The notes beneath the pieces are model-generated. The model was given only the letters and a program-made list of their open reading frames with translations, was not told where the DNA came from and ran no database searches. Position numbers and translations under genes: made by a program. 64,000 nucleotides of DNA from Arthrobacter stackebrandtii (GTDB lineage Bacteria; Actinomycetota; Actinomycetes; Actinomycetales; Micrococcaceae), in the NCBI RefSeq assembly GCF_017876675.1, contig NZ_JAGIOI010000001.1, forward strand, positions 1,798,001 through 1,862,000, read 5' to 3'. Within the stretch, counting starts at the first letter, position 1. Each line of letters begins with the position of its first letter. Positions 6,576 through 45,904 of the stretch are shown here, one piece after another.

Positions 6576-6592
6576 CACCCCACAGCAATTAC

Positions 6593-10247: not shown

Positions 10248-10343
10248 CTACTCTTCGCATCTTGCGCCTTGGCCTATGCGAACCCAAAGTTGCTCCGCTT
10301 GGGGCAGCTTCAGGGCTCGCGGGTAGGCGACAGGCCCGCGACC

Positions 10344-10670
10344 CTACTTAAGGACGCTGGCGAATTCCTTCTCAAAGTACTGCTTGGGGCGTGCGCCAAT
10401 GACGGTGCCCGTTACTTCGCCGCCCTGGAACAGGTAGACAGCGGGAATCGAAGTGATTCCATACTTGGCGGAGATTGCCGGGTTGGCGTCGACATCGACC
10501 TTGACTACCTCAACCTTCTCAGCGTGCTCCACGGAGATTTCGTCCAGGATGGGACCGAGCTTGCGGCAGGGGCCACACCATTCTGCCCAGAAGTCCACGA
10601 TGACAGGCTTGTCTGAATTCAGGACCAGTTCTTCAAATGTCGCATCAGATGCGCTCTTGGCATTGCTCAT
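10344..10670 (-). CDS. trxA: Thioredoxin
   Basis: A 108-aa cytoplasmic thioredoxin of normal length with the redox motif WCGPC (C32 and C35). The cis-Pro loop is in TSIPAVYLF. It reduces protein disulfides and is recharged by the thioredoxin reductase encoded 18 bp upstream, so trxB-trxA form an operon. The pair usually lies near parAB and the origin in Arthrobacter-type genomes, which fits the parS sites. Confidence 0.97.
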   Translation of the reverse strand: MSNAKSASDATFEELVLNSDKPVIVDFWAEWCGPCRKLGPILDEISVEHAEKVEVVKVDVDANPAISAKYGITSIPAVYLFQGGEVTGTVIGARPKQYFEKEFASVLK

Positions 10671-10688
10671 GGCTGTCTCAGCTTTCTC

Positions 10689-27517: not shown

Positions 27518-27579
27518 TTGGAAGCGTTTGCAGTAATTTGTTGGAAACGCTTGCATTAAATTGGTGGCTTGTGTTGAGT
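27518..27579 (+). promoter_or_regulatory. Tandem LacI-type operators and promoter of the amylase gene
   Basis: Two LacI-family operator-like palindromes, TTGGAAGCGTTTGCAG (27518-27533) and TTGGAAACGCTTGCAT (27541-27556), are 23 bp centre to centre. The second overlaps a likely -35 (TTGCAT, 27551-27556), with TTGAGT at -10 spacing (27574-27579). The central CG and GGAA/TTCC-type arms match MalR/CcpA-like sites. The same arrangement recurs at 34750 in front of the pilus genes. Confidence 0.8.
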
Positions 27580-27632
27580 GACAAGAGGCGCGGTGCAAGA
27601 GCAGCGCGCTTTTTGATGCAAAGGAGCACAGC

Positions 27633-30600
27633 ATGCACGGAAGTGTGACTATGGAGGCGCAGCGGAGCCTGCGCCGATTATTGGCGGTCCTTGCGGCCGC
27701 ATCCCTCCTGGTTACGGGGTTGGTCGCCACAGGCGGCGCCTCTCCAGCCCAAGCAGCTGCGGCCGGTCCCAAGGACACGATCGCAGTGCTTTTTTCATAC
27801 ACCTGGAACCAGATCGCCAAGGAATGTGAATCAACGCTGGGTCCGGCGGGGTATGGCTACGTCCAGACCTCCCCGCCCCAGGAACATGTGAAAGGCAGCC
27901 AGTGGTGGACTTACTACCAGCCGGTCTCGTACAAACTTGAGACCAGGATGGGCACCGAGGCTGAATTCACCTCAATGGTCCAGCGGTGCAAGGCCGCCGG
28001 CGTCGGCGTCATCGTCGATGCAGTGATCAACCACATGTCCGGCAAGTCAGAAGGCGGTACAGGCTGGGCAGGGACACCATTCCAACACTACGACTACCCC
28101 GGAATTTACAGCAGCAGCGACTTCCACAACTGCCGCAAGGACATCACCAACTACCAGGACCGCTATGACGTCCAGAACTGCAACCTGGTCAACCTCTCGG
28201 ACCTGGATACATCCTCCGACCACGTGCAGCAGACCATCGCCAACTACCTGAACCGCTTCGTCGACATGGGAGTTGCCGGTTTCCGCATTGACGCCGTCAA
28301 GCACATTGCTGCACAGGACATGGCAGGAATCTGGAATCGCGTGCGCAAAAAGGACTCGCTCTACGTGGTGCAGGAAGTCATCCGTGCCAACGAACCGGTC
28401 CAGCCTGAGGAGTACATCTCCATCGGCGACGTCCACGAGTTCGGCTTTGCCCGCAAGCTCAAGGAGGCCTTCGGCGGATCCCGCATCGACTGGCTGATCT
28501 CGGGTGCCGGTATTGGCGGCAGCTGGGACGGGTTCCTCAAGCAGGACGATGCGGCAGTATTCGTGGACAACCACGACACCGAACGCAACAACGAAACCCT
28601 GTCCTACAAGGACGGAAAATCCTACGACCTGGCCCAGGCGTTTACCCTGGCCTGGCCATACGGATCCCCGTCCGTCCACTCCGGATATGCCTTCTCTGAC
28701 AAGGACGCAGGCCCCGCCCTTGACGGCCAGGGCCGTGTCATTGACCCGGCACCGGGCCAGAACGGCTGGACGTTCAAGCACGCGCAGAACGACATCCAGA
28801 ACATGGTTGGATTCCGCGTGGCAACGTACGGCACGGCAGTCGCCAACAAGTGGTCCAGCGCGGACGGCTCTGCCATGTCGTTCAGCCGGGGCGACAGGGG
28901 CTTCATCGCCCTCAACAACGGCAGCGGCCAGGTCCAGCGCGAATTCACCACCAGCCTGCCCGACGGCAAGTACTACAACGTGATCACCGCCAAGCGCACC
29001 GGCGGCACCTGGAGCGGCGACACAGTCACCGTTGCCGGGGGCAAGTTCACGGCCACAGTGTCTGCCAAGACCGCCCTTGCCCTGCATGCGGGTGCAAAGG
29101 TTGAAAGCTGCGTCGACGTCAGTGCACCCAGCACCCCTGCGGCCGTCAGCGCCAAGGTCGACGGCGGTTCGCTTGCGGTTTCGTGGCAGGCGTCAAGCGA
29201 CGACTGTGGCGTATCCGGCTACGACGTGGTCCGCACAGGCGGAAGCGGCGGGGCGGTCACCAAGACCGTCACGGGCACGACTCTGACAGACAAGACCTTC
29301 TCGGCAGCCACCGCATACACGTACACGGTGACGGCCAGGGACGCTTCCGGCAAGTCAAGTGCAGCCTCTGCACCAGCCACCGTCACCACTCCGGAAGCAC
29401 CGGTCGTGACCGGCACATCGGTGTACTACAAGGCACCGTCCGGATGGTCCAAGGCGTATATGCACTACCGCTCCGGCACCGGCGCATGGACGACGGCACC
29501 CGGCACGGAGATGGCGCCGGTGGCCGGACTTGCCGGATGGTTCTCGGCAACGGTTGATGCGGCGGACGGCGCTGCGCTGACCGCCGCCTTCAACAATGGC
29601 GGGGGAACATGGGACAACAACGGCGACAAGAACTATGCCATCCCGGCAGGTCCGGAATGGTCCGTGTCGGAGGGCAAGGTCGTGGCCGGAACCCCCGACA
29701 AGCCGGTCGTGACGGGCTCCTCGGTGTACTACCAGGCACCCGCCGGCTGGACGAAAGCCTACCTGCACTACCGTGTTGGCACGGCCGCCTGGACCACGGC
29801 ACCGGGCGTCGAAATGACGCCGGTGGAGGGCATCCCGGGTTGGTTCAAGGCTTCCATCGAGGCTCCTGCCGGCACTGCCACCACCGCTGCATTCAACAAT
29901 GGTGCAGGTGCCTGGGACAACAACGGCGGCAACAACTACGCCATCCCGACAGGCCCGGCATGGTCGGTGTCGGGCGGTTCCGTCAACGCAGGAGCGCCCC
30001 AGAAACCGGTGGCACCCAAGCCGCTGGCGGGGAAGCTGGACCTTTTCTACAAGACGGGCCCCGGCTGGTCGACAGCCAACGCGCACTACCAGGTTGGTGC
30101 GGGTGCCTGGACCGCTGCTCCGGGCATTGCCATGGCGGCCGTGTCCAGCTGCGTCTCGGGTAACGGCTGGTACCGCCTGACAATAGACAGCGGAACTGCT
30201 GCAAACGTGACAGTGGCATTCAACAACGGCGCAGGGGCATGGGATAACAACGGAGGCAAGAACTACACGTTCACGACCGATGTTGCCGCGGTGTCCGCAG
30301 GAAAGGTCACAACCGCCGACCCCTGTGGCGTGATTGTGCCTGAGCCGGCCATTCCGGCCATGCCAACGGCCGTCGCGGTCAAGCCGCTGGGCAGCACCAG
30401 CATCCAGGCAACGTGGACTGCCGTCCCCGACGCCACCAGCTACTCCATCTCATACGGGCTGGACGGGCAGGGCGAGCCCCTGTTCGTCAAGGTCTCATCG
30501 GGAACTGAGCTCACGGCGCCGGGCCTGCTCCCGGGCAAGCGCTACTGGTTCAAGGTGCGTGCGGAAAACGCAGCGGGGGCCTCGGCCTACTCGCCGGCAG

Positions 30601-33600
30601 CCTTCGCCACCACGGAGGCCGAAATTGAGCCGACCGTTGAACCCACGGCAACTGCCACCGTTGAACCCACAGCACCTCCGACCAGCGAACCGGGCGATCG
30701 CGTGGGAACCGACCACTCGGTCGGGCTCTACAAGACGAACCCCTCGGCGCAGGTTGGCAAGTCGAAGGCCATCACGGTCGACGGCGATGCCTCGGAGTGG
30801 ACCGCGGACATGATCATCGCCCAAGGCGTGGCAAACGACGATCCGCGCATCTTCCGCGGATCGCATGAAGGCCCTGTCTACGATCCCTATGCGCTCTACG
30901 GCTCCTGGGATGACGATAACCTCTACCTGATGTGGCAATTCACCAACGTCACGGACGTGGTGGACCCGGCCCAGGGGTACCCCATCAGCGATAACGGCAA
31001 GCCTTACCAGGGAGACATCCCCCAGGCCATTGCTCTGGACGTGAACAACCGCGGCAGCAATGGCATGGTCACGGCGGACGAAAAGGGCGTCTGGGGCATG
31101 CGCTACTCCTTTGCGAACAACGAGGCAGACCACCTGCTGATGTTCTCAAGCAAGCCCAAGGTGGGCCAGCCGTCGATCTTCTCGCTCAACTCGGATGACG
31201 AATTCGACTATGAGCCGGAAAACGTGAGCGCTTTCAAGGACGCTGGCGTGAGCTTCGCCTACGGAGATGGTTTCGTCGGATCAACTGTGATGGGCATCAA
31301 GAAGAACGGCTATGAGGGATATGTTCCGGCCGATTTGAAGGATGCAGCGAACTTCACGGATCTGTTGACGAAGGGCCACGACAAGGCCCAGGACACCACC
31401 TACGAGATGAAGATCCCGTTGGCTTCGCTCGGCATCGACCGCGGCTATCTGGAAGGCAATGGGGTCGGCGTCATGCTGGTTTCCACTTTCGGGGAATCCG
31501 CAATTGGCTCGCTGCCGTACGATCCGACAACGCTGGACCATGCCCTGGACCCCTACACCGCGGATGAGTCAACGTCAGCTGAGAAGGAGGACGTGGATAC
31601 GTTCACGGCCAAATTCGCCAGTGTTGGTAGCGTCGGCACATCATCCGTCCTGCCGGCAACACCCAAATCGGTGACAGCTGCCCCCGTGGGAACGACAAGT
31701 CTCAAGGCGTCGTGGGCTGCCGTTGCAGGCGCCACCTCGTACACCGTCACCTATGCAGCTGAGAGCCAGGGCCAACCTGTCTTCGTGAAGGTCGCTTCGG
31801 GCACCCAGTTCACGGCGACGGGCCTGGCACCGGGAACCCGCTACTGGTTCAAGGTGCGCGCGGAGACGACTGCGGGGGCTTCGCCCTACTCGGCCGCGGT
31901 TTTTGCGGCCACCGACACAGAGGTGGAGCCCACCACCGAGCCCACCGAGACACCGACCATCGATCCGACGGTGGAACCAACGGTGGATCCCACCCCGGAA
32001 CCCACCGTCGACCCGACCCCGGAACCGACAGTGGATCCCACCCCGGAACCGACAGTTGACCCGACGCCGATCCCCACACCCACCGTTGACCCGACGCCGG
32101 GTCCCGGAACGGAGCCTGGCGGCTCGGTGGCCGGGGCAACCCAGGGTTCACCTTTGGGCGGGGACCCCCGTGAAGACTCGATTTACTTCATGATGACAGC
32201 GCGCTGGAATGACGGCGACAGCTCGAACAACATGGGCGGAAGCCAGCATGTTAAGTCGGGCAATGCCGCCAACAACGACCCGATGTACCGTGGGGACTTC
32301 CAAGGTGTCATCGACAAGCTCGACTACATCAAGGGAATCGGCTTCTCTGCCATCTGGATCACCCCGGTGGTCACCAACCGCAGCGACTATGACTTCCATG
32401 GTTACCACGGCTGGGACTTCCAGCGCATTGATCCGCGCCTGGAATCAGAGGGTGCCACTTACCAGGAACTGATCGATGCTGCCCACGCCAAGGGCATCAA
32501 GATCTACCAGGACGTGGTCTACAACCACACCTCGCGGTGGGGTGAAAAGAACCTCTTTGTCCCCACCGTCTTCGGCACACGTGATGCACAGTGGGACTGG
32601 TACTACGACGAGCCGGTGGAAGGCAAGGCCTACAACCCCGCCGAAACCGACGCCGACGGCAGCACCTACAACGGGGACTTGTGGTCCACAACCCAGCCCG
32701 CAGACCAAAAATGCAAGAACTGGGGCGTGCAGAGCGGCTTCTCGGCTGAAGGCTACAAGGTGTACAACTGCCAGTGGCCCAACGCCACCTCGGGCATGTT
32801 CCCGGCCGACACCTTCCACCAGTGCTGGATTGGCAACTGGGAAGGCAAGGACGCACAGGACTGCTGGATCCATGAGGACCTGGCTGACCTGAACACCGAA
32901 AGCGCCAAGGTGCAGGACTACCTGATCGACACGTACAACAAGTACATCGACATGGGTGTGGACGGTTTCCGTGTCGACACGGCGGTGCACATTCCGCGCG
33001 TCATGTGGAACCGGCACTTCCTGCCGGCGCTGCAGGAGCACGCAGTGGCAACGCATGGTGACAAGGGCAAGGACTTCTACGTCTTTGGCGAGGTCGCCCA
33101 GTTTGTCCATGACAAGTGGAACCGCGGATCCGTAAACCATTCGGCCCCGTTCTACACCTGGAAGGAGCGCCGCTCCTACAGCATTGACGACGTTGTGGCG
33201 GCGGCCGAGCAGTTCCAGTATGAGAACCTCATGGGACCTGCCGGCCAGCCGACAAGCGCCAACCACAAGCTGGACGGCAACAATTACCACAAACCCGACC
33301 ATTCGGCGTCGTCCGGCATGAGCATCATCGACATGCGGATGCACATGAACTTCGACAACGCCTCCAATGCCTTCCATTCGGGCATGGACTCCGACGACGC
33401 AACGAACGATGCCACCTACAACGCCGTGTATGTGGACAGCCATGATTATGGTCCGGGAAAGTCGCAAGTGAGGTTCGACGGCGGCACGGATGCCTGGGCG
33501 GAAAACCTGAGCCTCATGTGGTCCTTCCGGGGAGTGCCTGTGCTGTTCTACGGTTCAGAGATCGAGTTCCAGGCGGGCAAGCCGATCGACTGCGGGCCCA

Positions 33601-34073
33601 CGTGTCCGCTGGCGACCACCGGCCGTGCCTACTTCGGCGACCACCTGGCGGGAACCGTGACGGCCGGAGATTTCGGCACTGTCACCTCTGCCAGCGGTGC
33701 AGTGGCTGAGACGCTGCAGAAACCGCTGGTAAAGCACCTCCAGACACTGAACCAAGTCCGTCGTGCCGTCCCAGCCCTTCAGAAGGGCCAGTATTCAACG
33801 GACGGCGTCAGCGGAAACATGGCGTTCAAGCGCCGTTTCACGGAAGGCTCCGTGGACAGCTTTGTGCTGGTTGCGGTTTCTGAAGGGGCGTCGTTCTCCG
33901 GCATCCCCAACGGCACCTACGTGGATGCGGTAACCGGTGACAGCAAGACGGTCTCCAACGGATCGCTGACCATTCCGCTCTCCGGCAAGGGCAACATGCG
34001 TGCGTATGTGCTGTCCCTGCCAGGCAACCCTGCCCCGGGCAAGGTTGGCAATGGAAGCCCCTTCCTGAAGTGA
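27633..34073 (+). CDS. Giant secreted dual-domain GH13 amylase
   Basis: A 2146-aa exported protein with a signal peptide (about residues 7-42, ending SPAQA). In order: GH13 module 1 (about 45-490; D220 in FRIDAVKH, E248 in VVQEVIRANE, D315 in VDNHDTER); an FN3 domain; three CBM25-like starch-binding modules (about 590-905, each ending GxWDNNGxxNYA or NYT); a second FN3; a CBM9-like module (about 1025-1340); a third FN3; a Thr/Pro/Asp repeat linker; and GH13 module 2 (about 1505-2110; D1782 in FRVDTAVH, E1820 in VFGEVAQF, D1938 in VDSHDYGP). Both catalytic triads look complete. Module 1 is alpha-amylase-like; module 2 resembles secreted amylases or pullulanase-like enzymes, exact bond specificity unknown. 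AAAGGAG precedes the ATG. No sorting signal. Confidence 0.93.
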   Translation: MHGSVTMEAQRSLRRLLAVLAAASLLVTGLVATGGASPAQAAAAGPKDTIAVLFSYTWNQIAKECESTLGPAGYGYVQTSPPQEHVKGSQWWTYYQPVSYKLETRMGTEAEFTSMVQRCKAAGVGVIVDAVINHMSGKSEGGTGWAGTPFQHYDYPGIYSSSDFHNCRKDITNYQDRYDVQNCNLVNLSDLDTSSDHVQQTIANYLNRFVDMGVAGFRIDAVKHIAAQDMAGIWNRVRKKDSLYVVQEVIRANEPVQPEEYISIGDVHEFGFARKLKEAFGGSRIDWLISGAGIGGSWDGFLKQDDAAVFVDNHDTERNNETLSYKDGKSYDLAQAFTLAWPYGSPSVHSGYAFSDKDAGPALDGQGRVIDPAPGQNGWTFKHAQNDIQNMVGFRVATYGTAVANKWSSADGSAMSFSRGDRGFIALNNGSGQVQREFTTSLPDGKYYNVITAKRTGGTWSGDTVTVAGGKFTATVSAKTALALHAGAKVESCVDVSAPSTPAAVSAKVDGGSLAVSWQASSDDCGVSGYDVVRTGGSGGAVTKTVTGTTLTDKTFSAATAYTYTVTARDASGKSSAASAPATVTTPEAPVVTGTSVYYKAPSGWSKAYMHYRSGTGAWTTAPGTEMAPVAGLAGWFSATVDAADGAALTAAFNNGGGTWDNNGDKNYAIPAGPEWSVSEGKVVAGTPDKPVVTGSSVYYQAPAGWTKAYLHYRVGTAAWTTAPGVEMTPVEGIPGWFKASIEAPAGTATTAAFNNGAGAWDNNGGNNYAIPTGPAWSVSGGSVNAGAPQKPVAPKPLAGKLDLFYKTGPGWSTANAHYQVGAGAWTAAPGIAMAAVSSCVSGNGWYRLTIDSGTAANVTVAFNNGAGAWDNNGGKNYTFTTDVAAVSAGKVTTADPCGVIVPEPAIPAMPTAVAVKPLGSTSIQATWTAVPDATSYSISYGLDGQGEPLFVKVSSGTELTAPGLLPGKRYWFKVRAENAAGASAYSPAAFATTEAEIEPTVEPTATATVEPTAPPTSEPGDRVGTDHSVGLYKTNPSAQVGKSKAITVDGDASEWTADMIIAQGVANDDPRIFRGSHEGPVYDPYALYGSWDDDNLYLMWQFTNVTDVVDPAQGYPISDNGKPYQGDIPQAIALDVNNRGSNGMVTADEKGVWGMRYSFANNEADHLLMFSSKPKVGQPSIFSLNSDDEFDYEPENVSAFKDAGVSFAYGDGFVGSTVMGIKKNGYEGYVPADLKDAANFTDLLTKGHDKAQDTTYEMKIPLASLGIDRGYLEGNGVGVMLVSTFGESAIGSLPYDPTTLDHALDPYTADESTSAEKEDVDTFTAKFASVGSVGTSSVLPATPKSVTAAPVGTTSLKASWAAVAGATSYTVTYAAESQGQPVFVKVASGTQFTATGLAPGTRYWFKVRAETTAGASPYSAAVFAATDTEVEPTTEPTETPTIDPTVEPTVDPTPEPTVDPTPEPTVDPTPEPTVDPTPIPTPTVDPTPGPGTEPGGSVAGATQGSPLGGDPREDSIYFMMTARWNDGDSSNNMGGSQHVKSGNAANNDPMYRGDFQGVIDKLDYIKGIGFSAIWITPVVTNRSDYDFHGYHGWDFQRIDPRLESEGATYQELIDAAHAKGIKIYQDVVYNHTSRWGEKNLFVPTVFGTRDAQWDWYYDEPVEGKAYNPAETDADGSTYNGDLWSTTQPADQKCKNWGVQSGFSAEGYKVYNCQWPNATSGMFPADTFHQCWIGNWEGKDAQDCWIHEDLADLNTESAKVQDYLIDTYNKYIDMGVDGFRVDTAVHIPRVMWNRHFLPALQEHAVATHGDKGKDFYVFGEVAQFVHDKWNRGSVNHSAPFYTWKERRSYSIDDVVAAAEQFQYENLMGPAGQPTSANHKLDGNNYHKPDHSASSGMSIIDMRMHMNFDNASNAFHSGMDSDDATNDATYNAVYVDSHDYGPGKSQVRFDGGTDAWAENLSLMWSFRGVPVLFYGSEIEFQAGKPIDCGPTCPLATTGRAYFGDHLAGTVTAGDFGTVTSASGAVAETLQKPLVKHLQTLNQVRRAVPALQKGQYSTDGVSGNMAFKRRFTEGSVDSFVLVAVSEGASFSGIPNGTYVDAVTGDSKTVSNGSLTIPLSGKGNMRAYVLSLPGNPAPGKVGNGSPFLK
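31974..32100 (+). repeat. Tandem repeat coding the TVDPTPEP linker
   Basis: Successive 24-bp units encode TVDPTPEP four to five times between the third FN3 domain and the second GH13 module of the amylase, forming a flexible, probably glycosylated spacer. Related TVEPTATATVEPT sequence follows the second FN3 (about 30628-30690). Confidence 0.8.
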
Positions 34074-34087
34074 GGACTGCAGACGAA

Positions 34088-34666
34088 ATGCGAACCAACA
34101 AGATGGGCCTCTGGGCAAGGGGCGCCACGGCTGCGGCGGTCATGTCGCTTGCGCTTGCCGGCTGTACCGTGGGCGGCCCGCCGCCCACCGCGACGCAGGA
34201 CGCAGCGCCCTCTGCTGTGGAATACGTGCCTGATGCCTCTGCAGCAGGTGCCGCCGTGCTCGAGAGCATCACCGACTGCAAGGCAGTCGGTGAGCACTTT
34301 GGGGCGTTGCTGGATGGGATGGAACCCACGATGGAATCGGTCAGCGATGCCAGTGTGTTCTGCGACTGGGCTGCAGCCGACGATGAGGAGACTGTCTTCA
34401 GCGTCGAAGTGTGGCCTGCAACAAGTCCCGTTCCCGCCGCGGAGGCAGTTGCTGCTTCAGGCGGCACGGTCCTTGAGGATCCGCGCATTTCGGACGCTGG
34501 CGGCATTGTCTATGCAATCGCCCCCAGCAGCGAGGCGCTCGCCCTGACGGTGCTGCTGCCGGAGTACTCCATCTCGGCGACGGCACTCAACTTGGTGTCC
34601 GAGGCCGAGCAAAAGCAACAGATGTCCGTCGGCCTGTTTGAAATGACAGGACTGGCAGCCAGCTGA
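34088..34666 (+). CDS. Hypothetical lipoprotein downstream of the amylase
   Basis: A 192-aa lipoprotein with lipobox LALAGC (lipidated Cys near residue 26). The mature part has two further Cys (in TDCKAVG and VFCDWAA), a possible disulfide, and resembles small actinobacterial lipoproteins of unknown function in general composition only. ATG 34088 is 14 bp past the amylase stop, so it is probably in the same transcript. A strong hairpin follows the gene, ending the unit before the pilus promoter. No function is assigned. Confidence 0.8.
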   Translation: MRTNKMGLWARGATAAAVMSLALAGCTVGGPPPTATQDAAPSAVEYVPDASAAGAAVLESITDCKAVGEHFGALLDGMEPTMESVSDASVFCDWAAADDEETVFSVEVWPATSPVPAAEAVAASGGTVLEDPRISDAGGIVYAIAPSSEALALTVLLPEYSISATALNLVSEAEQKQQMSVGLFEMTGLAAS

Positions 34667-34689
34667 GTTGCCCGGGCCACGCACGGCCC

Positions 34690-34727
34690 GCGATGCCCGG
34701 GCAGGGAATCCCCTGCCCGGGCATCGC
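34690..34727 (+). terminator. Strong hairpin terminator after the amylase-lipoprotein unit
   Basis: Perfect 17-bp arms (GCGATGCCCGGGCAGGG and complement) flank the loop AATC, 24 bp after the lipoprotein stop. The following CTTGTC is only weakly T-rich. It separates the amylase transcript from the next promoter. Confidence 0.8.
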
Positions 34728-34749
34728 CTTGTCGCGGCGATGTCATAAA

Positions 34750-34810
34750 TGGAAGCGTTTCCAAGTATTTTGTGGAAACGCTTGCAAAAATTGGATGGCG
34801 TTGTTAGCCT
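34750..34810 (+). promoter_or_regulatory. Tandem LacI-type operators and promoter of the pilus genes
   Basis: TGGAAGCGTTTCCA (34750-34763) and TGGAAACGCTTGCA (34773-34786) have the same order and 23-bp spacing as the pair before the amylase, and the flanking bases are also alike (AAATTGG-TGGC against AATTGGATGGC). A likely -35 TTGCAA (34782-34787) overlaps the second operator, with TAGCCT 17 bp downstream (34805-34810). Repressor binding here would block transcription. Confidence 0.82.
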
Positions 34811-34875
34811 GATTACTAATTCTGTCGGACGGCGCGCCGAAGAACAACGACGCCGAAAATCTATTGGGGGAACAA

Positions 34876-37800
34876 ATGCCACGGCACCAGCCTGTCCGCA
34901 CGCCCAGCTTCCGGAAGCAGCAACGTTCACGTGTGCTCCATCAGTGGTTTGCGGGCGTGGGCGCCCTCATGCTCGCAGGAACCCTGGTCGTTGCGCCGGG
35001 CATTGCCGGGCAGGAACCCGCGGCGAAGGCCGCCAGCGGAAACTCGGTCTACATCGACGAGCCGCTGCAAGGCGAGGCGCCGCTGACCGGATGGTCGCTG
35101 TCCGGTGACGGCAACGTCTCTGACGTCAGCGGAAATCAGGCGGGTGCATGGCTTCCGCAACTGAGCACGATATCTGAGAACAACAACGTCAACCACAGCA
35201 TCAACACGAACAACTGTGGGTTTAGCACCGGCGCCAACCAGTGGCCGAGGTGCCTGGCGAACAAAAGCCCGGACCGCGACGGCAAGTGGATGACGTTGAC
35301 GACGGACAACACCAACGCAAACAGTGCCAACAACAACGGCGGTGCGCAGGCCGGCACAGCCCTGAACAACACACCCTTTAAATCCGACTTGGGCGTGGTG
35401 CTCGAATACGACCAGCGTCTGTACCGCACCAACGACGGCCGCATCGGAGGCTCTCCGGCCATCCAGGGCGGCGGTGACGGCCTGGCCGTCTACCTGGCAG
35501 ACGCCAACGGCAACAACTACGGCAACAGCGGCATCGACACGTCTGTCGGCGAGGCCGGAGGTTACGGTGCAGGCCTCGGATACTCGGCCGTGTCATACAA
35601 CGGCGACAATCTCTGCCCCGCTGCGCAGGGCGTGGCAGGCGGCTACATCGGCGTCGGCTTCGACGTGTACGGCAACTACCAGAAAGCCGAGAACACCAAC
35701 GCCACCACCCAGTACAACCGCGCGACACGGCCATGGAGCGTGGCGCAGAGCAACCCTGCAGCGTTTGCAGACCTCGGCGGCGGAGTCACATCTGCCCGCA
35801 TCCCCCAGTCCATCGGCCTGCGCGGCTCGGGCGTGCGCTACACCGACCCACCTGCGTGCGACCCCGCTGCAACGGGCGGCATGAACCAGGCCTTTGGCCT
35901 TGTTGCCACCAATGATGCCCTCGTGACGCAGCCCGGCAACGTCACCGTCTTCCAGCCGAAATGGGACGGCAATGACACTGCCGCCGACTACAAGGCCGGC
36001 TACAACGACAAGCAAAGCGGCACGTGGGTGAACCTTCCCCAGAGCGCAATTACCCAGGCCACGGCTGCGCAGTTGCCGGCGGGCCTCGGCGACCCGAAAG
36101 GATACGTGATGCTCACGGTGCCGGCCGCGGCAGCCCCGTTCGACCTCTGGTACACGCGCAAGAATGTAACCGCCGGTGCCAACTTTGTCGGCATCAACGG
36201 GGACGCGGCCCTGGGCAAAGCGCCCAGCTACACGCCGCTGAAGCGCACGGTTGGCGGTTATCGATGGCTGGCCGGAACAAACAACCTGTCAAGCGCACCG
36301 AACCCGACCAACCCCGGCCTCATCAACGACAACGCCGCTGCGCGCCAGGGCGCCGTCATTGACAACGCTCAGATGGACTCGACCAAGTACCGCCGCGTGC
36401 GGATCACCCTCACGCCGAAAGCCGACGGGTCACGTTCCGTAAAGGTGTACTGGACCGACAAGTTGAATGTCTCGGATGACAAGTGCTACACCCCGGCCGG
36501 TGTGGAAATCACGGGAGTCGGCGCCAACGGTTCCAGCGACAGCTGCATCAGCGGCGGCGGCACGTGGCACCACGGCCAGCCCTATGCCTTCAACGAGCAG
36601 TTCTCATACGACGTCGCATCCAGCAGCTATCAGGCCGAGCTGCCGACAGAGTTCAAACTTGGCTTCTCGGCCTCGACCGGCTGGGCCGTCAACTACCACC
36701 AGATCCGCAACGTGCGCGTGACGAGTGTCGTGGACCTCGCGGTCGACAAGACCGTGCAGGCAACAGGTGCGGGCAGCTCAATTGACGACGGCGCGTGGGC
36801 CGACGAGACCCAGGTGAATGCCGGCGAGAAGGTCGCCTACAAGATTGATGCCTGGAACAACGGGATCTCCGACCTTGACGACGAATACCCCGCCAGCCTG
36901 GTGGACGGCCTCGACCAGGTGCCGTTCGACGACCTGGCCAACGTGGCGTGGACCGCAACGGCCACGGGTGATGCGAAGGTGTGCACGACATGGAACACGG
37001 CAACCGTGAAGTGCGATGCATACGGCACAACGCTTTCCGGAACCGGAGCGCTCACGGATGCAGCGCCCCTGCGCTGGGCTGCGGCCTCGCGGACCCACGA
37101 CCCAACGGCAAACATCAACGTCGTGTTCACAGGCACTGTCGGCGCGTCGACAGGCGAAGGCAGCTACCCGAACACCGCAGTCGTGGCCACGAGCCGTGTG
37201 GGCGGCCCCCAGGAAGACGACTTCAGCAACAACAAAGACGACGCCCTGATCACGGTCCTCCCGCACATCCCGCAGTGGACGCTTGGCAAGGCCGCTGAGC
37301 CGGCATCAGGCAGCCTGGTGGGAGCGGGGGAAACGATCGAATACACGGTCTCGGTTGAAGCCCTCGACCCTGAGCCCATCGGAACCGTTGCGGGTGTTTC
37401 AGTGGTCGACAACCTCGCAGAGGTGCTGCAATACGCAGAATTCGAGGCCGGTTCCGTGCTCATCAACGGCGCTGCACCGGCGGCCGGGGTGACCGTCACG
37501 GAGCCGGTGCCGGCGAACAACCAAACGCTCACAGTCGCCGGGCTCAACCTGCCTGCCGCAACAACAACGCCCATAACCTACAAGGTGACGGTCAAGGATC
37601 CCGCTGCATCGAACGTGTCATTCCGCAACTACGTGCTTGGCGTGCTTGCGGACAACCCGCCGGTGCAATGTGCGGCAGACAGCGAGGCCGACTACCTGGC
37701 CAACTGTTCCACCATTCACCACACGCCCAGCCTCCTTCAGGTGCTGAAGGTCGGCGAAGATTCCACCGGCGCCACGATCCCGTTCGAAGGGTCCGAGTGG

Positions 37801-38259
37801 GCCATCTACCCGGACGACAACGGTGCACCTGCCGCGACGCCGGTGGTGGAGTTTGGCCCGGAGCCCAAGTCGCCGGAAATTGGCACAGGCCTGTTCCAGG
37901 CCCAGTTGGCACCCGGCAGCTACTGGCTGGCGGAGACCAAGGCGCTGGACGGCTTCAATCTACTGCCCGGACCCGTGGCATTTACCGTGGCCGCCGACGG
38001 CACCGTGACACTGGCCGGAGGAAATACGGGTTCGATTGAGGCGTGTGCCGTGGCGGCGTCCACAGGGCTGTGCCAGCACATACCCGCCGACAACACCACC
38101 GTCCCCACCATCGTGGTGCAGGACGTTCCGATTCTTGCCCTGCCAGAAACTGGCGGGTTGGTTCCCCCATGGTTGTTCTATGCCGCTGGGGTCTTGATGG
38201 TCGCCCTAACCGGGACCATCGCCGTTGTACTCATCAGGCGACGCCGCGATGACGCATGA
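34876..38259 (+). CDS. LPXTG pilus tip adhesin with L-type lectin-like domain
   Basis: An 1127-aa surface protein. The start ATG is 4 bp after GGGGGA. A signal peptide runs to about residue 55 (AAKAASG). The large N-terminal part has legume-type lectin features (GGGDGLAVYLADANG, GAGLGYSAVSY, GVGFDVYGNY) and ends near residue 620. DUF11-like isopeptide or beta-sandwich domains follow, then a SpaA/Cna-B prealbumin-like domain (LLQVLKVGEDSTG to YWLAETKALDGFNL). The sorting signal is LPETG at residue 1089, a hydrophobic helix and an RRRR tail. It is first in the tip-backbone-sortase order of SpaA-type pilus operons. The ligand is unknown; an alpha-glucan is inferred from the neighbours. Confidence 0.88.
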   Translation: MPRHQPVRTPSFRKQQRSRVLHQWFAGVGALMLAGTLVVAPGIAGQEPAAKAASGNSVYIDEPLQGEAPLTGWSLSGDGNVSDVSGNQAGAWLPQLSTISENNNVNHSINTNNCGFSTGANQWPRCLANKSPDRDGKWMTLTTDNTNANSANNNGGAQAGTALNNTPFKSDLGVVLEYDQRLYRTNDGRIGGSPAIQGGGDGLAVYLADANGNNYGNSGIDTSVGEAGGYGAGLGYSAVSYNGDNLCPAAQGVAGGYIGVGFDVYGNYQKAENTNATTQYNRATRPWSVAQSNPAAFADLGGGVTSARIPQSIGLRGSGVRYTDPPACDPAATGGMNQAFGLVATNDALVTQPGNVTVFQPKWDGNDTAADYKAGYNDKQSGTWVNLPQSAITQATAAQLPAGLGDPKGYVMLTVPAAAAPFDLWYTRKNVTAGANFVGINGDAALGKAPSYTPLKRTVGGYRWLAGTNNLSSAPNPTNPGLINDNAAARQGAVIDNAQMDSTKYRRVRITLTPKADGSRSVKVYWTDKLNVSDDKCYTPAGVEITGVGANGSSDSCISGGGTWHHGQPYAFNEQFSYDVASSSYQAELPTEFKLGFSASTGWAVNYHQIRNVRVTSVVDLAVDKTVQATGAGSSIDDGAWADETQVNAGEKVAYKIDAWNNGISDLDDEYPASLVDGLDQVPFDDLANVAWTATATGDAKVCTTWNTATVKCDAYGTTLSGTGALTDAAPLRWAAASRTHDPTANINVVFTGTVGASTGEGSYPNTAVVATSRVGGPQEDDFSNNKDDALITVLPHIPQWTLGKAAEPASGSLVGAGETIEYTVSVEALDPEPIGTVAGVSVVDNLAEVLQYAEFEAGSVLINGAAPAAGVTVTEPVPANNQTLTVAGLNLPAATTTPITYKVTVKDPAASNVSFRNYVLGVLADNPPVQCAADSEADYLANCSTIHHTPSLLQVLKVGEDSTGATIPFEGSEWAIYPDDNGAPAATPVVEFGPEPKSPEIGTGLFQAQLAPGSYWLAETKALDGFNLLPGPVAFTVAADGTVTLAGGNTGSIEACAVAASTGLCQHIPADNTTVPTIVVQDVPILALPETGGLVPPWLFYAAGVLMVALTGTIAVVLIRRRRDDA

Positions 38260-38329
38260 CCGCCGCAAACCCGCGGCATTCACACCCTTCAAAACTGCAC
38301 GATCGACACACGGAACAGGAGAACTACCT

Positions 38330-39868
38330 GTGAATTCCTCATTCACGCGTCGCTGGCGGAATACGCTCGCGATCACCGCCATCGCCGCTCTCACGGCCAT
38401 TGGCTTCGCCAGCCCGGCGGCCGCCGCCCCGACGATTGACCCAGGTGCGACCGGCAGTCTCACCATCCACAAGCGGGTCAACCCGGCGGGAGTCCTGACC
38501 CCGGGCAATGGGCTGGAAGACCCCGCCGCCCCGGGAGGCCCGCTGGCGGGCATCAACTTTGACCTACAGTCCATCGGCAATGTTGACCTGCTCACGACCG
38601 CAGGTTGGACGGCAGCAGGCGCGTTTGCGCAGGACCCAAGCACCATCCCGGCCGGGGACCTCGGCACTGCCGTCTCGGGGACCACGACAGCCCCCGATGG
38701 CAGCTACACGTTTGGCAACCTGGACATTGGCGCCTACCTCGTCACCGAGCGGCTGACGCCTGCCCAGGTCGACAGCGGCATCTCCGGCGCGTCACCCTTC
38801 GTCGTGACCATCCCGATCACGGATCCGGACAACCTGGACAACTGGGTGTATGACGTCCACGTTTACCCCAAAAACCACCAGACCGAACCCACGAAGACCG
38901 TCGATGACGGCCCGAACTCGACCTACCAGGTCGGCGACCTGATCGACTGGACCATCTCGGCCCAAGTCCCCTCGCAGGCAACAGATGCCTACGCCTTCAA
39001 GGACGAACTGGTTGCCAACCTCGAGATCCCGGCGAGCGTCGCAGACAACATTGAGGTAGCCATTGGTGGAACCGCACTTGTGACTGCCGACTACACGTTC
39101 AGCTACGACGCGGCGGGCGGCAACGTCCTCACCGTGGAGCTCACTGCGGCCGGCCTGGCCAAGCTCAATGCTGTGGCAGGCGGCACCCAGAACATTGCAC
39201 TGACGATCACCACTAAGGTTGTGTCCCTGCCGGCAAACGGCATCATCGAGAACGAGGGCATCATCTTCCCGAACTCGGGCTACCCGATTTCGGGTCCGGG
39301 CGTTGTGACTCCGCCGGTGGAGTCCAAGTTCGGTGCGATCAACGTCCTGAAGGTTGATGCATCCGACGACGCGAAGTTCCTTGCAGATGCTGAATTCAAG
39401 GTCTTCAAGAGTGAAGCCGACGCACAGGCATACGCCGCTGATCCAACGGGGAACGCCGCCCTCCCGCTGAAGGCGCAGGAAAACGGCGCCGGCGCCCTGG
39501 TCGAGACGTTCACGACGGGCACCAACGGTGAAGTTTCGATCTTCGGCCTGCGCGCCTCCAACTGGCAGGACGGCGTGGAGCTGACTGATCCGGCAACCTT
39601 CCAGAACTACTGGCTGCTGGAGACAAAGGCGCCCCAGGGCTACGTGCTCTCGACGGCTCCGTTTGGGCCGATCACGGTGGCGTACAACAGCGCAGCGCCG
39701 ACAGTCCTGCCGTTTGGCGACCTGAACGTGCCCAACGTTGAAAAGACCGAACTGCCGCTTACCGGTGGAACCATTGCAACCGGCATCTTCTTCCTTGCCG
39801 GAGCCCTGATCCTCGGCGGCATTGCGCTGCTGGTTGTCCGCTCACGCAAGCGTGGAGCCATGGCATAA
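38330..39868 (+). CDS. SpaA-type major (backbone) pilin, LPXTG
   Basis: A 512-aa pilin with a signal peptide ending SPAAAA. The pilin motif WVYDVHVYPKN places the polymerising Lys at K181. The E-box YWLLETKAPQGY has E431, which promotes the internal isopeptide bond. The sorting signal is LPLTG at residue 475, with a membrane helix and RSRKRG tail. Domain 1 has the GSLTIHKR start typical of such pilins. The GTG start follows AGGAG by 8 bp. Pilins of this type are joined head to tail by the class C sortase, encoded next. Confidence 0.94.
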   Translation: MNSSFTRRWRNTLAITAIAALTAIGFASPAAAAPTIDPGATGSLTIHKRVNPAGVLTPGNGLEDPAAPGGPLAGINFDLQSIGNVDLLTTAGWTAAGAFAQDPSTIPAGDLGTAVSGTTTAPDGSYTFGNLDIGAYLVTERLTPAQVDSGISGASPFVVTIPITDPDNLDNWVYDVHVYPKNHQTEPTKTVDDGPNSTYQVGDLIDWTISAQVPSQATDAYAFKDELVANLEIPASVADNIEVAIGGTALVTADYTFSYDAAGGNVLTVELTAAGLAKLNAVAGGTQNIALTITTKVVSLPANGIIENEGIIFPNSGYPISGPGVVTPPVESKFGAINVLKVDASDDAKFLADAEFKVFKSEADAQAYAADPTGNAALPLKAQENGAGALVETFTTGTNGEVSIFGLRASNWQDGVELTDPATFQNYWLLETKAPQGYVLSTAPFGPITVAYNSAAPTVLPFGDLNVPNVEKTELPLTGGTIATGIFFLAGALILGGIALLVVRSRKRGAMA

Positions 39869-39986
39869 GGCAAGCACCATCCTGGCGGTGGGCGACGCAT
39901 CCGTGCGCCGCCCACCGCACAGCTGTTTCTGCCGTGCAAAGCCGTTCCAGCAGCACTCGAATGCACTAGTACAAGATGGCACATCA

Positions 39987-40967
39987 ATGAGTATTTTTCT
40001 TCAACCAGGCCCGGGACCAGACTCCGTTTGGGAGCCGGAACCGGAGCAAACGCCGAGCCCGCGCCGCCGCAGTTCCGCGGCCTTACGCGGGTTTAATGCC
40101 CTTCTGGTGCTGGGGGCCCTGGCCGGGGGAATTGTCTTTTCCTACCCGCTGGCGGCTCCATGGATAGCCGATTCCATCCAGGCCGACGCGGTTGTCAAGT
40201 ATGAGCAGCAAAACTCCGAGATCGACCCGCAAGCCCGCCAGCGGCTGCTTGCTGCTGCACATGAATACAATTCCCACCTGCCCAGCGGACCGCTCCGCGA
40301 CCCATACGTCATCAATGAACGCGGTGAAGCGGTCAACATGGAAGAGGGCCGCGAACAGTACCAGCAACAGCTCGCGATAAATCCCGACGATCCCGCAGCA
40401 CCCATGGCGCGACTGGTGGTTCCCGGGTTGGGCCTTGACCTGCCCGTCTACCACGGAACCGATGAAGAAACTCTGACGCGCGGGGTCGGGCACTTTTACG
40501 GTTCCGGACTGCCCGTGGGTGGTGCAGGAAACCACGCGGTTCTGAGTGCGCACTCCGGATACGTCAACTCGACCCTGTTCAATGACCTGCCCTCGATGAA
40601 GCTGGGCGACACCTTCACCCTGACGGTGCTGGGGGAGGTGCTGACATACAAAGTCGACAACATAGCGACAGTCCTTCCCAATGAATCTGAGCTGTTGCGA
40701 CAGGTGCCCGGCAAGGATTACGTGACACTCCTGACGTGCACACCGCGGTACGTGAACACGCACCGGCTGTTGGTCCGCGGCGAGCGGATACAGACGGAGG
40801 ATGCCGAGGCGAAAGTCGCTCAAAGCCAGCTGGTCAGCGCCCCCGATCCAGGCCTGCCTTGGTGGGTCTTGATTGCGCTGGGGCCAGCCACGCTCACGCT
40901 CCTTTTGCTCATCCGACCCGCACCGCACCCCCTCGGTGGCATGCGTCACATTCAAAGGAATGGTTGA
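39987..40967 (+). CDS. Class C (pilus-polymerising) sortase
   Basis: A 326-aa sortase with an N-terminal membrane helix (ALLVLGALAGGIVFSYPLA) and a C-terminal one (WWVLIALGPATLTLLLLI). The catalytic His189 is in LSAHSG, Cys251 in LLTCTPRY and Arg260 in NTHRLLV. The lid loop has the class C DPY motif (GPLRDPYV). It cleaves LPXTG between Thr and Gly and links pilin Lys side chains. It lies 118 bp after the backbone pilin. No housekeeping sortase is in the window, so wall anchoring would rely on one elsewhere. Confidence 0.94.
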   Translation: MSIFLQPGPGPDSVWEPEPEQTPSPRRRSSAALRGFNALLVLGALAGGIVFSYPLAAPWIADSIQADAVVKYEQQNSEIDPQARQRLLAAAHEYNSHLPSGPLRDPYVINERGEAVNMEEGREQYQQQLAINPDDPAAPMARLVVPGLGLDLPVYHGTDEETLTRGVGHFYGSGLPVGGAGNHAVLSAHSGYVNSTLFNDLPSMKLGDTFTLTVLGEVLTYKVDNIATVLPNESELLRQVPGKDYVTLLTCTPRYVNTHRLLVRGERIQTEDAEAKVAQSQLVSAPDPGLPWWVLIALGPATLTLLLLIRPAPHPLGGMRHIQRNG

Positions 40968-40985
40968 CCTGCATCACACTTTTAA

Positions 40986-41023
40986 GTGATTGTTGGTGAG
41001 TATTTGATTTACAAATCAATCAC
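40986..41023 (+). promoter_or_regulatory. AT-rich inverted repeats before the GH31 gene
   Basis: GTGATTG (40986-40992) and CAATCAC (41017-41023) enclose a perfect 12-bp palindrome GATTTACAAATC (41006-41017). The stretch is much more AT-rich than its surroundings and lies between the sortase stop and the GH31 start. It is a candidate promoter/operator and does not match the LacI-type operators of the amylase and pilus genes. Confidence 0.45.
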
Positions 41024-41055
41024 GAACCATCGTCAATAGTTGAAAGTGAGTTCGC

Positions 41056-44000: not shown

Positions 44001-45840
44001 CGGCGGCGGCGCCACGTTCAGCGCCGACCAGCTCAAGACCGCCCCGGTTCCGGCCGGCGGCGTAAGCCCCGGTTCCACGGTAACCGTGGACGCGGGCCTG
44101 CCCACCGAGGTCAACTACACCTGGCCTGCCGTGGGTGCGGACAAGAACAACGCGGTGGCCCTCAACGGCCAGACCGTTGCCCTCACCGGCAAGGGAACCG
44201 ACCTGGCAGTACTTGGTTCCTCCGCATCCGGCCCCGGCGTCAGCCCGGAATTCACCATCACCTACACCGACGGCACCGTCCAGAAGCAGAGCCTGTACTA
44301 TCCCAACTGGCTGCCGCAGGGCGACACCAAGGGCGCCAAGGTGGCCATCAAGTCCATGGGCCGCAACAGCACCGGACAGGCCAGCAACCCCGAGTACACG
44401 AGCACCGGCTACCAGATCTACTCCGGCACCCTGCGCCTGCTGCCCGCCAAGGAACTGGCGTCCGTGCAGCTGCCCATTGCCGAAAACGTGAAGATCTTCG
44501 ACTGGCAGGTGGTGGACTTCCCGCTGCCGACGGCCCCGGATGCGGACGCCTTCGCCTCCGACCTGGAACCTGTCAGCGCCACCAACGGCTACGGCGTCAT
44601 CGGCTGGGACGTGGTCAACAAGGACTCGGCCGGCTCGCCGGACGTCCCGCTGACCATCATCGACAAGACGGATCCGGCCAAGCCGGTCACCAACACCTAT
44701 GAAAAGGGCCTGGGCGTTCACGCGCCGTCCAACGTCCAGTTCTACACGGGCGGGCAGTGCACCAGCTTCTCGAGTTTCGTCGGCCTGGAAGGTGCGTTCG
44801 GCGGCAAGATCATCTTCACCATCGTCGGCGACGGCAAGGTCCTCTACCAGAGCCGCACCTTCACGAGCGGCTTCGCCCCGGAGCACCCTGTGGTGGACCT
44901 GACGGGCGTCTCCTATGTTGAGCTGAAGGTCGACCCAATCTCCGCCGGCGCCATCAACGGCGCCCACGGCGTGTGGGGCGATGCCAAGTTCAGCTGCGGC
45001 GCACCCGCCCCGGTGGATGAGACCGCACCCGTCACGACGGCGACAATCGCACCCGCCGAGCCCGCCGCATCCGGCTGGTACACCACTGCCCCGGCGGTGA
45101 CGCTGGCAGCGGCGGACGAGTCCGGCGTCGAGCTTACCGAGTACAAGATCGGTGAGGGACCCTGGACCGAGTACACCGGGACGGTGACGCTCCCCGAGGG
45201 TGTCAACGGCTTCAGCTACCGCTCACGCGACACGGCCGGCAACCTCGAGGAGGCCAAGGCCGCCGCCGAGTTCAAGGTGGACACGCAGGCGCCCACGGTG
45301 TCGGCCGCGGTTGACGCCGATGCCCGCACCGTCACGGTTGAGGCCGCGGATTCCGGCTCAGGCATTGCCACGGTGGAATACTCCACCGACGGCGGCGCCA
45401 CCTGGCAGGCCTACGCGGCTGCGATCCAGGCCGGGGACGACGGCGTGTCCGTCGCCTACCGCGCCACGGACCACGCAGGCCTGGCAGCAGCCTCCGCCGC
45501 GGACGCCGTCGTGGCACCGGTTGACACGCCGGCACCCCCGGCACCCGTGGTCGATGCACCCGCCAAGGCCGCACCGGGCGAAACCGTCACGGTGCAGTTC
45601 ACCGGACTCGCGGCCGGGGCCAAGTACGCGCTGTGGACCAACGCCAAGCCCGGCAAGTCCGCGGCCGTGGGCGACCTCAAGCTCGCGGACGTCACGGCCG
45701 GGGCCAACGGTTCCGCAACCGTTGACATCACCCTGCCGAAGTCGCTGTCCAACGGCATGCACACCCTGCTCCTGCAGCAGGGCGGGACCGTGGTGGCCAA
45801 TTCCGCCATCGTGGTGAACAAGGGGAAGGGCGGCAGGTAG
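41056..45840 (+). CDS. Secreted multidomain GH31 alpha-glucosidase/transglucosidase
   Basis: A 1594-aa exported enzyme (signal to about residue 55, ending APAAAADA). The GH31 catalytic domain spans about 90-700; the likely nucleophile is D440 in KLDVAWVGAGY and acid/base D491 in WTGDHSGNLDQ. The nucleophile region differs from the common WxDMNE form and resembles actinobacterial GH31 transglucosidase subgroups. A NEW3-type domain (about 855-955), an NPCBM-like carbohydrate-binding domain (about 1180-1315), OmpL47-like beta repeats and a C-terminal beta domain follow; there is no sorting signal. It likely acts on alpha-glucan oligosaccharides from the amylase, by hydrolysis or transfer; specificity is inferred. 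Confidence 0.88.
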   Translation: MSPFHMKDPAALPTKPPDRRLLGRRATAVALAGLMAVGTVPALAVSGAGLAPAAAADAGTPISASSIKPEVGVDANGSTLGAIASFSQADNVVTLVPAKGAVRVTFLDDGNFRLEATPTGTFTDPANTPESPADPTRIADIVVGADQFKKGSVTVTDSGGVITMATATVKLEANKASGAFTLRRADGTVVWQESSALSFGSDTTTQHLEPIAGEQFLGGGMQNGRVVHTGSTINISNNFNWADGGHPNAAPYYMTSAGYGVLRNTFAPGSYTFTQNETTTHREKRFDAYYFVGDYKQSLDGYTKLTGRPNLPPVYGLEYGDADCYNRSNPGYSSSGYGEGDTPKQVTFDAVQTAKAFKDNDMPAGWMLVNDGYGCEYTPDPAGYDKDAPYDPVNPDKGLGGTVKAIKAEADLKTGLWTQRSLTNQESEVGNDGIALRKLDVAWVGAGYRLALTGCESAKSGIESYSDGRANTLMVEGWAGSQRCGVQWTGDHSGNLDQGRWGVSALAGATNSGMAFTTSDVDGIFGGSAESYVRDLQWKAFAPEIYSMSGWAPTDKRPWLYGETATEINRKYLQMRQELMPYIYSLAVDASNTGVGMMRTMPLEFPNDPLSYTKEAETQFFLGRDYLVAPISNSNPVRNGIVLPAGSQWVDYWTGAVYEGGQILNGYSAPLETLPMFVRAGSVVPQGEIARNASLVPEDSPITVDVYPAGASSFAMNEDDKVSREYRNGATSRQEFAVTAPAKDGGDVAVTIGKRDGDYAGKAAARPYKLDVHSGSQPSAVLVGATILDKVADAAAFDAAETGWYYDAADAGGTVHVKAGAVASNATATITLKDASAVGGTDSDAKAAQVAVTLEEKVFQGQATQASAQFTNTGSNAKTDVVITPAVPEGWSVSNAKGNTVASVAPGATVQATFELTPGTEAAAGLQSIGATASYTDSKGAAREVTGSNQMYVAYGSLAGAFNNISVTTANGSFVDKLGNFDGGGATFSADQLKTAPVPAGGVSPGSTVTVDAGLPTEVNYTWPAVGADKNNAVALNGQTVALTGKGTDLAVLGSSASGPGVSPEFTITYTDGTVQKQSLYYPNWLPQGDTKGAKVAIKSMGRNSTGQASNPEYTSTGYQIYSGTLRLLPAKELASVQLPIAENVKIFDWQVVDFPLPTAPDADAFASDLEPVSATNGYGVIGWDVVNKDSAGSPDVPLTIIDKTDPAKPVTNTYEKGLGVHAPSNVQFYTGGQCTSFSSFVGLEGAFGGKIIFTIVGDGKVLYQSRTFTSGFAPEHPVVDLTGVSYVELKVDPISAGAINGAHGVWGDAKFSCGAPAPVDETAPVTTATIAPAEPAASGWYTTAPAVTLAAADESGVELTEYKIGEGPWTEYTGTVTLPEGVNGFSYRSRDTAGNLEEAKAAAEFKVDTQAPTVSAAVDADARTVTVEAADSGSGIATVEYSTDGGATWQAYAAAIQAGDDGVSVAYRATDHAGLAAASAADAVVAPVDTPAPPAPVVDAPAKAAPGETVTVQFTGLAAGAKYALWTNAKPGKSAAVGDLKLADVTAGANGSATVDITLPKSLSNGMHTLLLQQGGTVVANSAIVVNKGKGGR

Positions 45841-45856
45841 CCGTTCCTGAATTGCA

Positions 45857-45904
45857 AGGGCCGGGCCCGTCCGCCTTGCGCGGGCGGGCCCCGGCCCTAT
45901 TTTG
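45857..45904 (+). terminator. Intrinsic terminator after the GH31 gene
   Basis: AGGGCCGGGCCCGTCC and CGGGCGGGCCCCGGCCCT form a GC-rich stem with one bulge, followed by TATTTT. It lies 17 bp past the GH31 stop and marks the right end of the alpha-glucan region. Confidence 0.8.

Follow-up and report, generated by a model that had tools for sequence, protein, structure and literature searches.

Does a sortase-dependent pilus form part of the starch-digesting machinery of an actinobacterium? The question is raised by a locus of Arthrobacter stackebrandtii, whose 4.43-Mb genome is a single contig, from which a stretch of 64,000 nucleotides (the window; G000:C1:1798001-1862000, where G000 stands for this genome) was analysed. 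Here the genes for an amylase, a lipoprotein-like protein, a pilus tip ending in LPETG, an LPLTG pilin, a class C sortase and an enzyme of glycoside hydrolase family 31 (GH31) follow one another in that order, all on the forward strand. Sortase pili have been studied mainly as factors of host adhesion, and the original prediction for this locus proposed instead a pilus that holds the cell to starch or another alpha-glucan while secreted enzymes digest it. The pilus is linked to starch digestion by the sites upstream of the genes, by a third gene far away in the genome and by its insertion together with the amylase, and we assign a probability of roughly 0.5 to the reading that it would be an alpha-glucan-regulated adhesion pilus serving starch use. 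As the pilus is genetically tied to starch digestion, the question of whether it belongs to the starch machinery reduces to a test of binding and induction. The features on which the argument draws are the following (window coordinates, strand, description):

25974..27350, +, NlpC/P60 gene, left neighbour of the inserted block; adjoins the GH31 gene in relatives
27519..27555, +, tandem operator pair, presumably LacI-type, 5' of the amylase gene; two 14-bp sites, 23 bp apart
27633..34073, +, secreted amylase of 2146 aa, from domain searches
30621..31673, +, region with the CBM74 starch-binding module of the amylase; matches the Ruminococcus bromii CBM74 chain 7uwv, E 1.3e-53
34070..34666, +, lipoprotein-like protein of 198 aa; overlaps the amylase stop
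34690..34727, +, hairpin of 16 bp or more, perfectly paired and lacking a T run, between the two units; seen by eye, absent from the listing of the terminator scan
34750..34786, +, tandem operator pair, presumably LacI-type, 5' of the tip gene; same 23-bp spacing, identical in G015
34864..38259, +, pilus tip of 1131 aa with LPETG; likely start ATG at 34876
38225..39868, +, SpaH/EbpB-type backbone pilin of 547 aa with LPLTG; likely start ATG at 38249; NF033902
39822..40967, +, class C (pilus) sortase with TLLTC; likely start ATG at 39984; NF033745
41056..45840, +, GH31 alpha-N-acetylgalactosaminidase-like enzyme of 1594 aa; older neighbour, outside the block

That a complete pilus locus lies between the amylase and GH31 genes, as had been claimed, is borne out by profiles and motifs alike. 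The pilin scores 335.8 bits against NF033902 (cut-off 95), and a pattern check places the pilin motif WVYDVHVYPK at residue 207, an E-box (YWLLETKAPQGY) at 462 and LPLTG at 510. The sortase scores 234.4 bits against NF033745 (cut-off 160), contains the TLLTC and DPY motifs and falls into class C within the gene row of the pilin. The backbone pilin and class C sortase of a SpaA-type gene set are hence both present, and an assembled pilus is predicted. As in other SpaA-type pili of Gram-positive bacteria, genes for a tip, for an LPxTG pilin bearing both the pilin motif and an E-box, and for a class C sortase are arranged in a row; the L-type-lectin-like head of the tip and the operators common to starch enzymes set the locus apart.

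The amylase is indeed the giant starch-binding GH13 enzyme originally described, although a second GH13 domain, a CBM74 module and the 198-aa gene that precedes the tip gene had been overlooked. Its chain consists of a GH13 domain (residues ~44-489), three CBM25/26 modules (~597-901), FN3, CBM74, a further FN3, a PT-rich linker and the second GH13 domain (~1512-1980). The CBM74 module (~997-1347) matches Sas6 of Ruminococcus bromii with E 1.9e-52 when the whole chain is used and 1.3e-53 with the excised region, so that CBM74, CBM25/26 and GH13 are united in a single chain, as in a CBM74 amylase. At E values up to 1e-10 CBM74 was detected in one of 394 genomes of the class, that of A. stackebrandtii itself, and a CBM74 search of plasmids gave no match. 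The 198-aa protein shows a lipobox on inspection by eye and a weak, below cut-off match to DUF3558 (E 8.8e-4), and is 100% identical in G015, another genome of the genus. When the C-termini of the amylase and of the GH31 enzyme were inspected by eye, neither showed a sorting signal, in agreement with the original prediction.

The amylase and tip genes, as first noted from the sequence, are preceded by the same tandem operators. The pattern GGAARCGYTTSC-N11-GGAARCGYTTSC begins at 27520 upstream of the amylase and at 34751 upstream of the tip, with the second sites at 27543 and 34774. When gaps of 10-12 are allowed, the tandem pattern is found at exactly these two places in the genome and at none in the reversed control, against a rough expectation of ~3.4e-5 for a tandem pair derived from the density of single sites. 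Within the window the single 12-mer, with at most one mismatch, has 9 matches versus a shuffle mean of 2.97, a count reached by 1 of 100 shuffles. Five of the ten places in the genome where the exact 12-mer occurs lie upstream of three genes, four of them in the block and one, at G000:C1:37021, before an amylopullulanase gene; of the remaining places four are inside predicted genes and one is in a gap adjoining a transposase gene. From the shape of the site we take the operator to be of the LacI type. A consensus scan of the 27.0-46.5 kb region for sigma-70-type promoters found 0 against 2.4 expected, and "promoter" is used here for the stretch upstream of a gene.

The distant amylopullulanase is a protein of 2070 aa with GH13, three X25 and the pullulanase N2 and C domains, and a terminal LASTG sorting signal, by which it is predicted to be anchored to the wall. 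Its upstream region contains one exact site and a second that is one base off, as well as an 18-bp string (TGGAAACGCTTGCATTAA) that is identical 5' of the amylase gene. When G000, G015 and a third genome of the genus, G001, are compared, the two sites are visibly conserved although the DNA around them has diverged. As G001 has neither the full-length tip nor the full-length amylase, the operator exists there without the block. In front of the amylase gene of G015 the first site differs by one base and the second is unchanged. The 14-mer TGGAARCGYTTSCA is present in 7 of the 23 genomes of the genus: in G000, G015 and G001 it lies upstream of starch or pilus genes, with one extra copy inside a gene in G000, and in G014, G019 and G020 the copies sit inside open frames. 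No starch gene detectable by Pfam adjoins the 14-mer in G014, G019, G020 or G004, and all four are regarded as chance occurrences, with the possible exception of G004, whose site may serve a different regulon as a genuine operator. There, at G004:C6:16583, an open frame whose product weakly matches an RNA ligase opens with a palindromic TGGAAGCGCTTCCA, and a dehydrogenase gene lies nearby.

It might be argued that amylase and pilus are chance neighbours in one island and that their shared operators belong to general carbon-catabolite control, an explanation compatible with the occurrence of the block in only 2 of the 23 genus genomes and with the other pilus and lectin-head loci described below, none of which has a match to the amylase catalytic parts nearby. 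A general catabolite site would, however, be expected at many sugar genes, whereas the exact tandem occurs at two places only. Likewise, when exact sites alone are counted, the 14-mer lies upstream of just three genes of this genome, two of them coding for starch enzymes, apart from its intragenic copy. We therefore regard chance adjacency as unlikely, and the rare operator common to two starch enzymes and the pilus, together with their union in one block, sustains the part of the original prediction that ties the pilus to starch.

The five genes from amylase to sortase constitute a 13.6-kb block that is not found in relatives, and of the 23 genomes of the genus only G000 and G015 combine a full-length amylase with a full-length tip. 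The G+C content of the block is 62.7%, that of its neighbours 66.3-67.5%. The regions around the GH31 gene were compared in eight of the nine genomes that carry this gene and lack the block, G021 being left out as its contig starts 719 bp upstream; gene limits in all fetched loci, of this genome and of relatives, follow a longest-open-reading-frame and GC3 rule and are approximate. In 7 of the 8 the NlpC/P60 gene lies beside the GH31 gene with no block in between, with the reservations that a doubtful 134-aa frame separates the two in G016 and that the NlpC gene of G010 is only 42% identical. On the right the block seems to end within the final codons of the sortase gene (40930-40967), since a comparison by eye shows them to resemble DNA that is intergenic in relatives. 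Viewed in this way, the insertion appears as if it had fused the end of the sortase gene to the old upstream DNA of the GH31 gene. The eighth relative, G012, has ~4 kb of other genes between NlpC/P60 and GH31 (G012:C3; stretch positions 7532-11413), and given this uptake of other DNA the gap is a possible hot spot of insertion.

Comparison with G015 delimits a further unit within the block. Between 28.0 and 38.5 kb the DNA identity of the two genomes is 97-100% in 20 of 21 bins of 500 bp and 93% in the remaining one, while outside this tract it is 72-93% on the left and 84-92% at 38.5-42.5 kb. The near-identical tract stops early in the pilin gene, and pilin and sortase differ more from their counterparts in G015. 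The genes for amylase, lipoprotein and tip thus form one near-identical tract, which would be explained most simply by recent exchange. A scan of genome contigs with two narrow peptide patterns returned a single locus, on the contig of G015 (NZ_JADHDY010000001.1). This contig is labelled "Sporosarcina beigongshangi" yet is placed in the genus of the window; the genome looks actinobacterial and the label doubtful.

The GH31 enzyme, which the original prediction enlisted as a second alpha-glucan-degrading partner, does not fit that role. Its best matches in the PDB are the alpha-N-acetylgalactosaminidases 6m76, 7f7r and 7f7q (E 8e-120 to 1e-118), which we take to be from Enterococcus faecalis; the next other match is at 6e-48. 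The enzyme is thus closest to alpha-N-acetylgalactosaminidases, far ahead of alpha-glucosidases, and a place among the alpha-glucosidases or alpha-xylosidases finds no backing in these matches. The segments around two aspartates, presumably the catalytic ones, align with the alpha-N-acetylgalactosaminidases. Structure 6m76 is named by its depositor as LPXTG-anchored, in contrast to the window enzyme. The gene is present at full or almost full length in 11 of the 23 genus genomes, 9 of which lack the full-length tip and the block, and its upstream region, compared by eye, is conserved in relatives without the block. No exact operator precedes it in the window scan. In G001 the orthologue (G001:C1:3465979-3470439) has one TAG inside the matched stretch. 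A three-part system, in which the GH31 enzyme would also digest the pilus-held alpha-glucan, could appeal to the position of its gene on the same strand, 88 bp downstream of the sortase gene; its enzyme type, its residence beside NlpC/P60 in relatives lacking the block and the missing operator make such a system highly improbable. As a component of an alpha-glucan system the GH31 enzyme was accordingly rejected, being an older resident of the site.

The tip itself was said to be lectin-like, and profile comparison relates its head to the L-type lectins. The protein is composed of an L-type-lectin-like head with a large insert (residues 61-624), a DUF7927 domain, a SpaA domain and LPETG. Direct comparison with the Pfam profile PF18483 (cut-off 78.3 bits) gives E 1.8 for the window head and 0.0099 for the orthologous head of G588, a genome outside the family. 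As the window head alone is not significant in Pfam, the lectin assignment is a chain of homology. Seven relatives of the head show weak but repeated matches to L-type lectins (PF18483 to 8e-8 and PF00139 to 7e-6, all below the curated cut-offs), and the profile of a seven-member lectin set retrieves peanut lectin (E 4.9e-8) and other legume lectins from the PDB. The head profile in turn aligns with this lectin set with an hhalign probability of 99.8 and E 1.8e-29 over 143 columns (head residues 79-263). By this chain the head of the tip is a relative of the L-type lectins, though not a Pfam member. Residues D145, G172/G175, D207 and N211 are invariant in five related heads, and we take them to resemble the Asp, Gly and Asn of the legume sugar site. 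A PDB profile search with three heads gave weak matches to YraM/LpoA in the insert (E 0.0022 and 0.0075), and an AlphaFold2 model of the head, built on two near-identical alignment rows, reached a mean predicted local distance difference test score of only 31.7, too low for the model to be of use.

The arrangement did not turn out to be conserved in other genomes. A full-length tip head is present in 2 of the 23 genus genomes and in 2 of 395 sampled genomes of the family (G000 and G015, with at most two candidates scored per genome). A sample of the order, with at most three candidates scored, returned 2 of 396 including A. stackebrandtii itself, the other being G588 (48% identity to the window head), and two further partial heads. 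In the family of G588, 26 of 221 genomes have a head match, of which 25 are partial and only that of G588 is full-length. Plasmid matches to the tip are restricted to its C-terminal half, in three records from Arthrobacter and Paenarthrobacter. Because the full-length head and CBM74 are so rare in these samples, conservation cannot be used to support the link between pilus and starch.

Several points weigh against a pilus that serves starch use, the first being that related pili exist with no alpha-glucan enzyme found beside them (G588, G1288 and G1295), a finding that the original prediction had itself named as evidence against it. Here the absence of an amylase means that BLAST detected nothing similar to the catalytic parts of the window amylase (P0001) in the fetched stretch, generally ~5-8 kb on each side and less on short contigs, a search in which unrelated carbohydrate enzymes would be missed. 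The orthologous pilus of G588, with a tip ~40%, a pilin 62% and a sortase 62% identical to those of the window, has neither an amylase match nor an exact operator within ~17 kb upstream and 12 kb downstream, from which it follows that this type of pilus exists without that neighbour. G1288 and G1295 have lectin-headed pili, each with a class C sortase and two pilin-like genes, and no amylase nearby; L-type lectin pilus tips seem to be more widespread in the family of these two genomes. The same holds for 19 other pilus loci of the window's family (20 fetched, one of which was the G015 block), which lack a GH13 match, two of them matching the FN3/linker stretch only, and for 20 fetched loci with related lectin heads, which have no match to the catalytic parts, four matching the low-complexity linker only. 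These last 20 were drawn from 28 partial head matches outside G588 in its family, G450 and G628 being fetched separately. Judging from these loci, the type of pilus needs no adjacent amylase, and the link appears to be special to this lineage. The block itself is known in only two closely related genomes. Moreover, the identity to G015 climbs again to 96-100% inside the GH31 gene (42.5-44.0 kb), so that the block is not alone in showing a tract of exchange. The exact 12-mer, with 11 matches at its 10 places in the genome and 13 in the reversed control, is not above the control in number and is informative in position and pairing only. The regulator is probably of the LacI type, with no gene assigned to it and no search for a regulator gene made. 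Finally, the Pfam search of the tip revealed no module for starch binding, and L-type lectins as a class bind many sugars.

The G588 pilus genes (1276-7874 of the fetched stretch) begin directly after a tRNA-Leu gene; one flank has genes of protein kinase and FtsW type, the opposite flank genes for fumarase and of succinate dehydrogenase/fumarate reductase type.

The same evidence bears on the possibility that the pilus is co-regulated with the starch enzymes while its tip holds another glycan, such as that of the plant wall or of a fungal or bacterial surface, starch being merely the signal of plant or decaying material. The specificity of an L-type lectin is not readable from its sequence, the G588 orthologue retains the head with no amylase found beside its pilus, and the head has many relatives in what look to be surface proteins of the usual anchored kind. 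Such a reading of starch has a precedent in Bifidobacterium, for which the available part of one study interprets it as a niche signal for gut-colonisation pili and not as the target of the pilus (PMC11286577). A direct partnership is nevertheless a better fit to the fact that amylase and tip share one near-identical tract with G015 and a tandem operator found nowhere else, and we consider a tip for some other glycan rather doubtful. That the tip binds starch directly is itself possible, but less likely than not. The stricter version of the preferred reading, a dedicated starch-adhesion pilus with an alpha-glucan-binding tip, one regulator in common with amylase and amylopullulanase and a tract exchanged together with the amylase, is likewise put forward tentatively.

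An alpha-glucan-regulated adhesion pilus might operate as follows. One regulator, probably of the LacI type, would sense alpha-glucan breakdown products and release three promoters together, those of the amylase, the pilus and the amylopullulanase. The amylase, presumed to act on raw starch, would stay on the granule through its CBM25/26 and CBM74 modules while digesting starch, and the amylopullulanase, encoded elsewhere, would digest at the wall. The two-part sortase pilus with its lectin tip would attach the cell to a starch granule or to starch-bearing material. If true, this would be a pilus-based counterpart of the amylosome. The amylosome of Ruminococcus bromii is assembled by cohesin-dockerin interactions. 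With it and the Sas proteins (Sas6, 7uwu/7uwv) the window system has CBM74 and the strategy of cell-surface starch capture in common; unlike the amylosome, it would derive contact from a covalent pilus, and no cohesin or dockerin is among the Pfam matches of the window proteins P0001-P0006 at E values up to 0.01.

The general idea of a starch-linked pilus is not new. According to the accessible parts of the respective reports, the sortase-dependent pilus cluster and the amylase cluster of B. pseudocatenulatum MM0196 rise on starch relative to lactose (PMC11286577), the pilus cluster of B. adolescentis 22L is cited there as starch-induced, and starch raises the pilin-related and vWA proteins of B. 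globosum 45 together with its CBM25/26/74 amylases (PMC13271388). As in the window, a sortase-type pilus is thereby linked with extracellular amylases of several modules, which include CBM25/26/74 in B. globosum (PMC13271388) and CBM20/26 in strains of B. pseudocatenulatum (PMC11286577). The link in Bifidobacterium is, however, one of expression, and that in the window is genetic, consisting of one block with shared operators and known here from the DNA alone. In the portions consulted, the clustered amylases and the vWA gene of B. globosum 45 are stated not to be co-located (PMC13271388), and the pilus genes of B. pseudocatenulatum (0074-0078) and its amy cluster (1449-1458) have distant locus tags (PMC11286577). 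The vWA protein named in Bifidobacterium also contrasts with the lectin-like head of the window tip, and the role of pili in starch metabolism is said there to need further work (PMC13271388). Starch-responsive sortase pili being already known, what is new here is the genetic and regulatory tie and a different tip.

CBM74 has been described in MaAmyA of Microbacterium aurum and in resistant-starch amylases (PMC5093618, PMC13271388, as far as the sections available go). MaAmyA and MaAmyB are raw-starch amylases of the GH13 type with CBM25 and FNIII, and in MaAmyA CBM74, for which an origin by transfer and reshuffling was proposed (PMC5093618). The window amylase differs in having two GH13 domains in one chain and in adjoining a pilus, of which the available part of that paper makes no mention for the M. 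aurum amylases (PMC5093618). A limited search of open-licence papers brought up no account of amylase and pilus genes in one block, nor of an L-type lectin at the tip of a pilus linked to starch. A. stackebrandtii has a second pilus locus (G000:C1:2411156-2416564), coding for a class C sortase, an LPLTG pilin and a tip that matches PF20597, an adhesive domain of ice-binding-like type; the 17 kb fetched there contain no amylase match.

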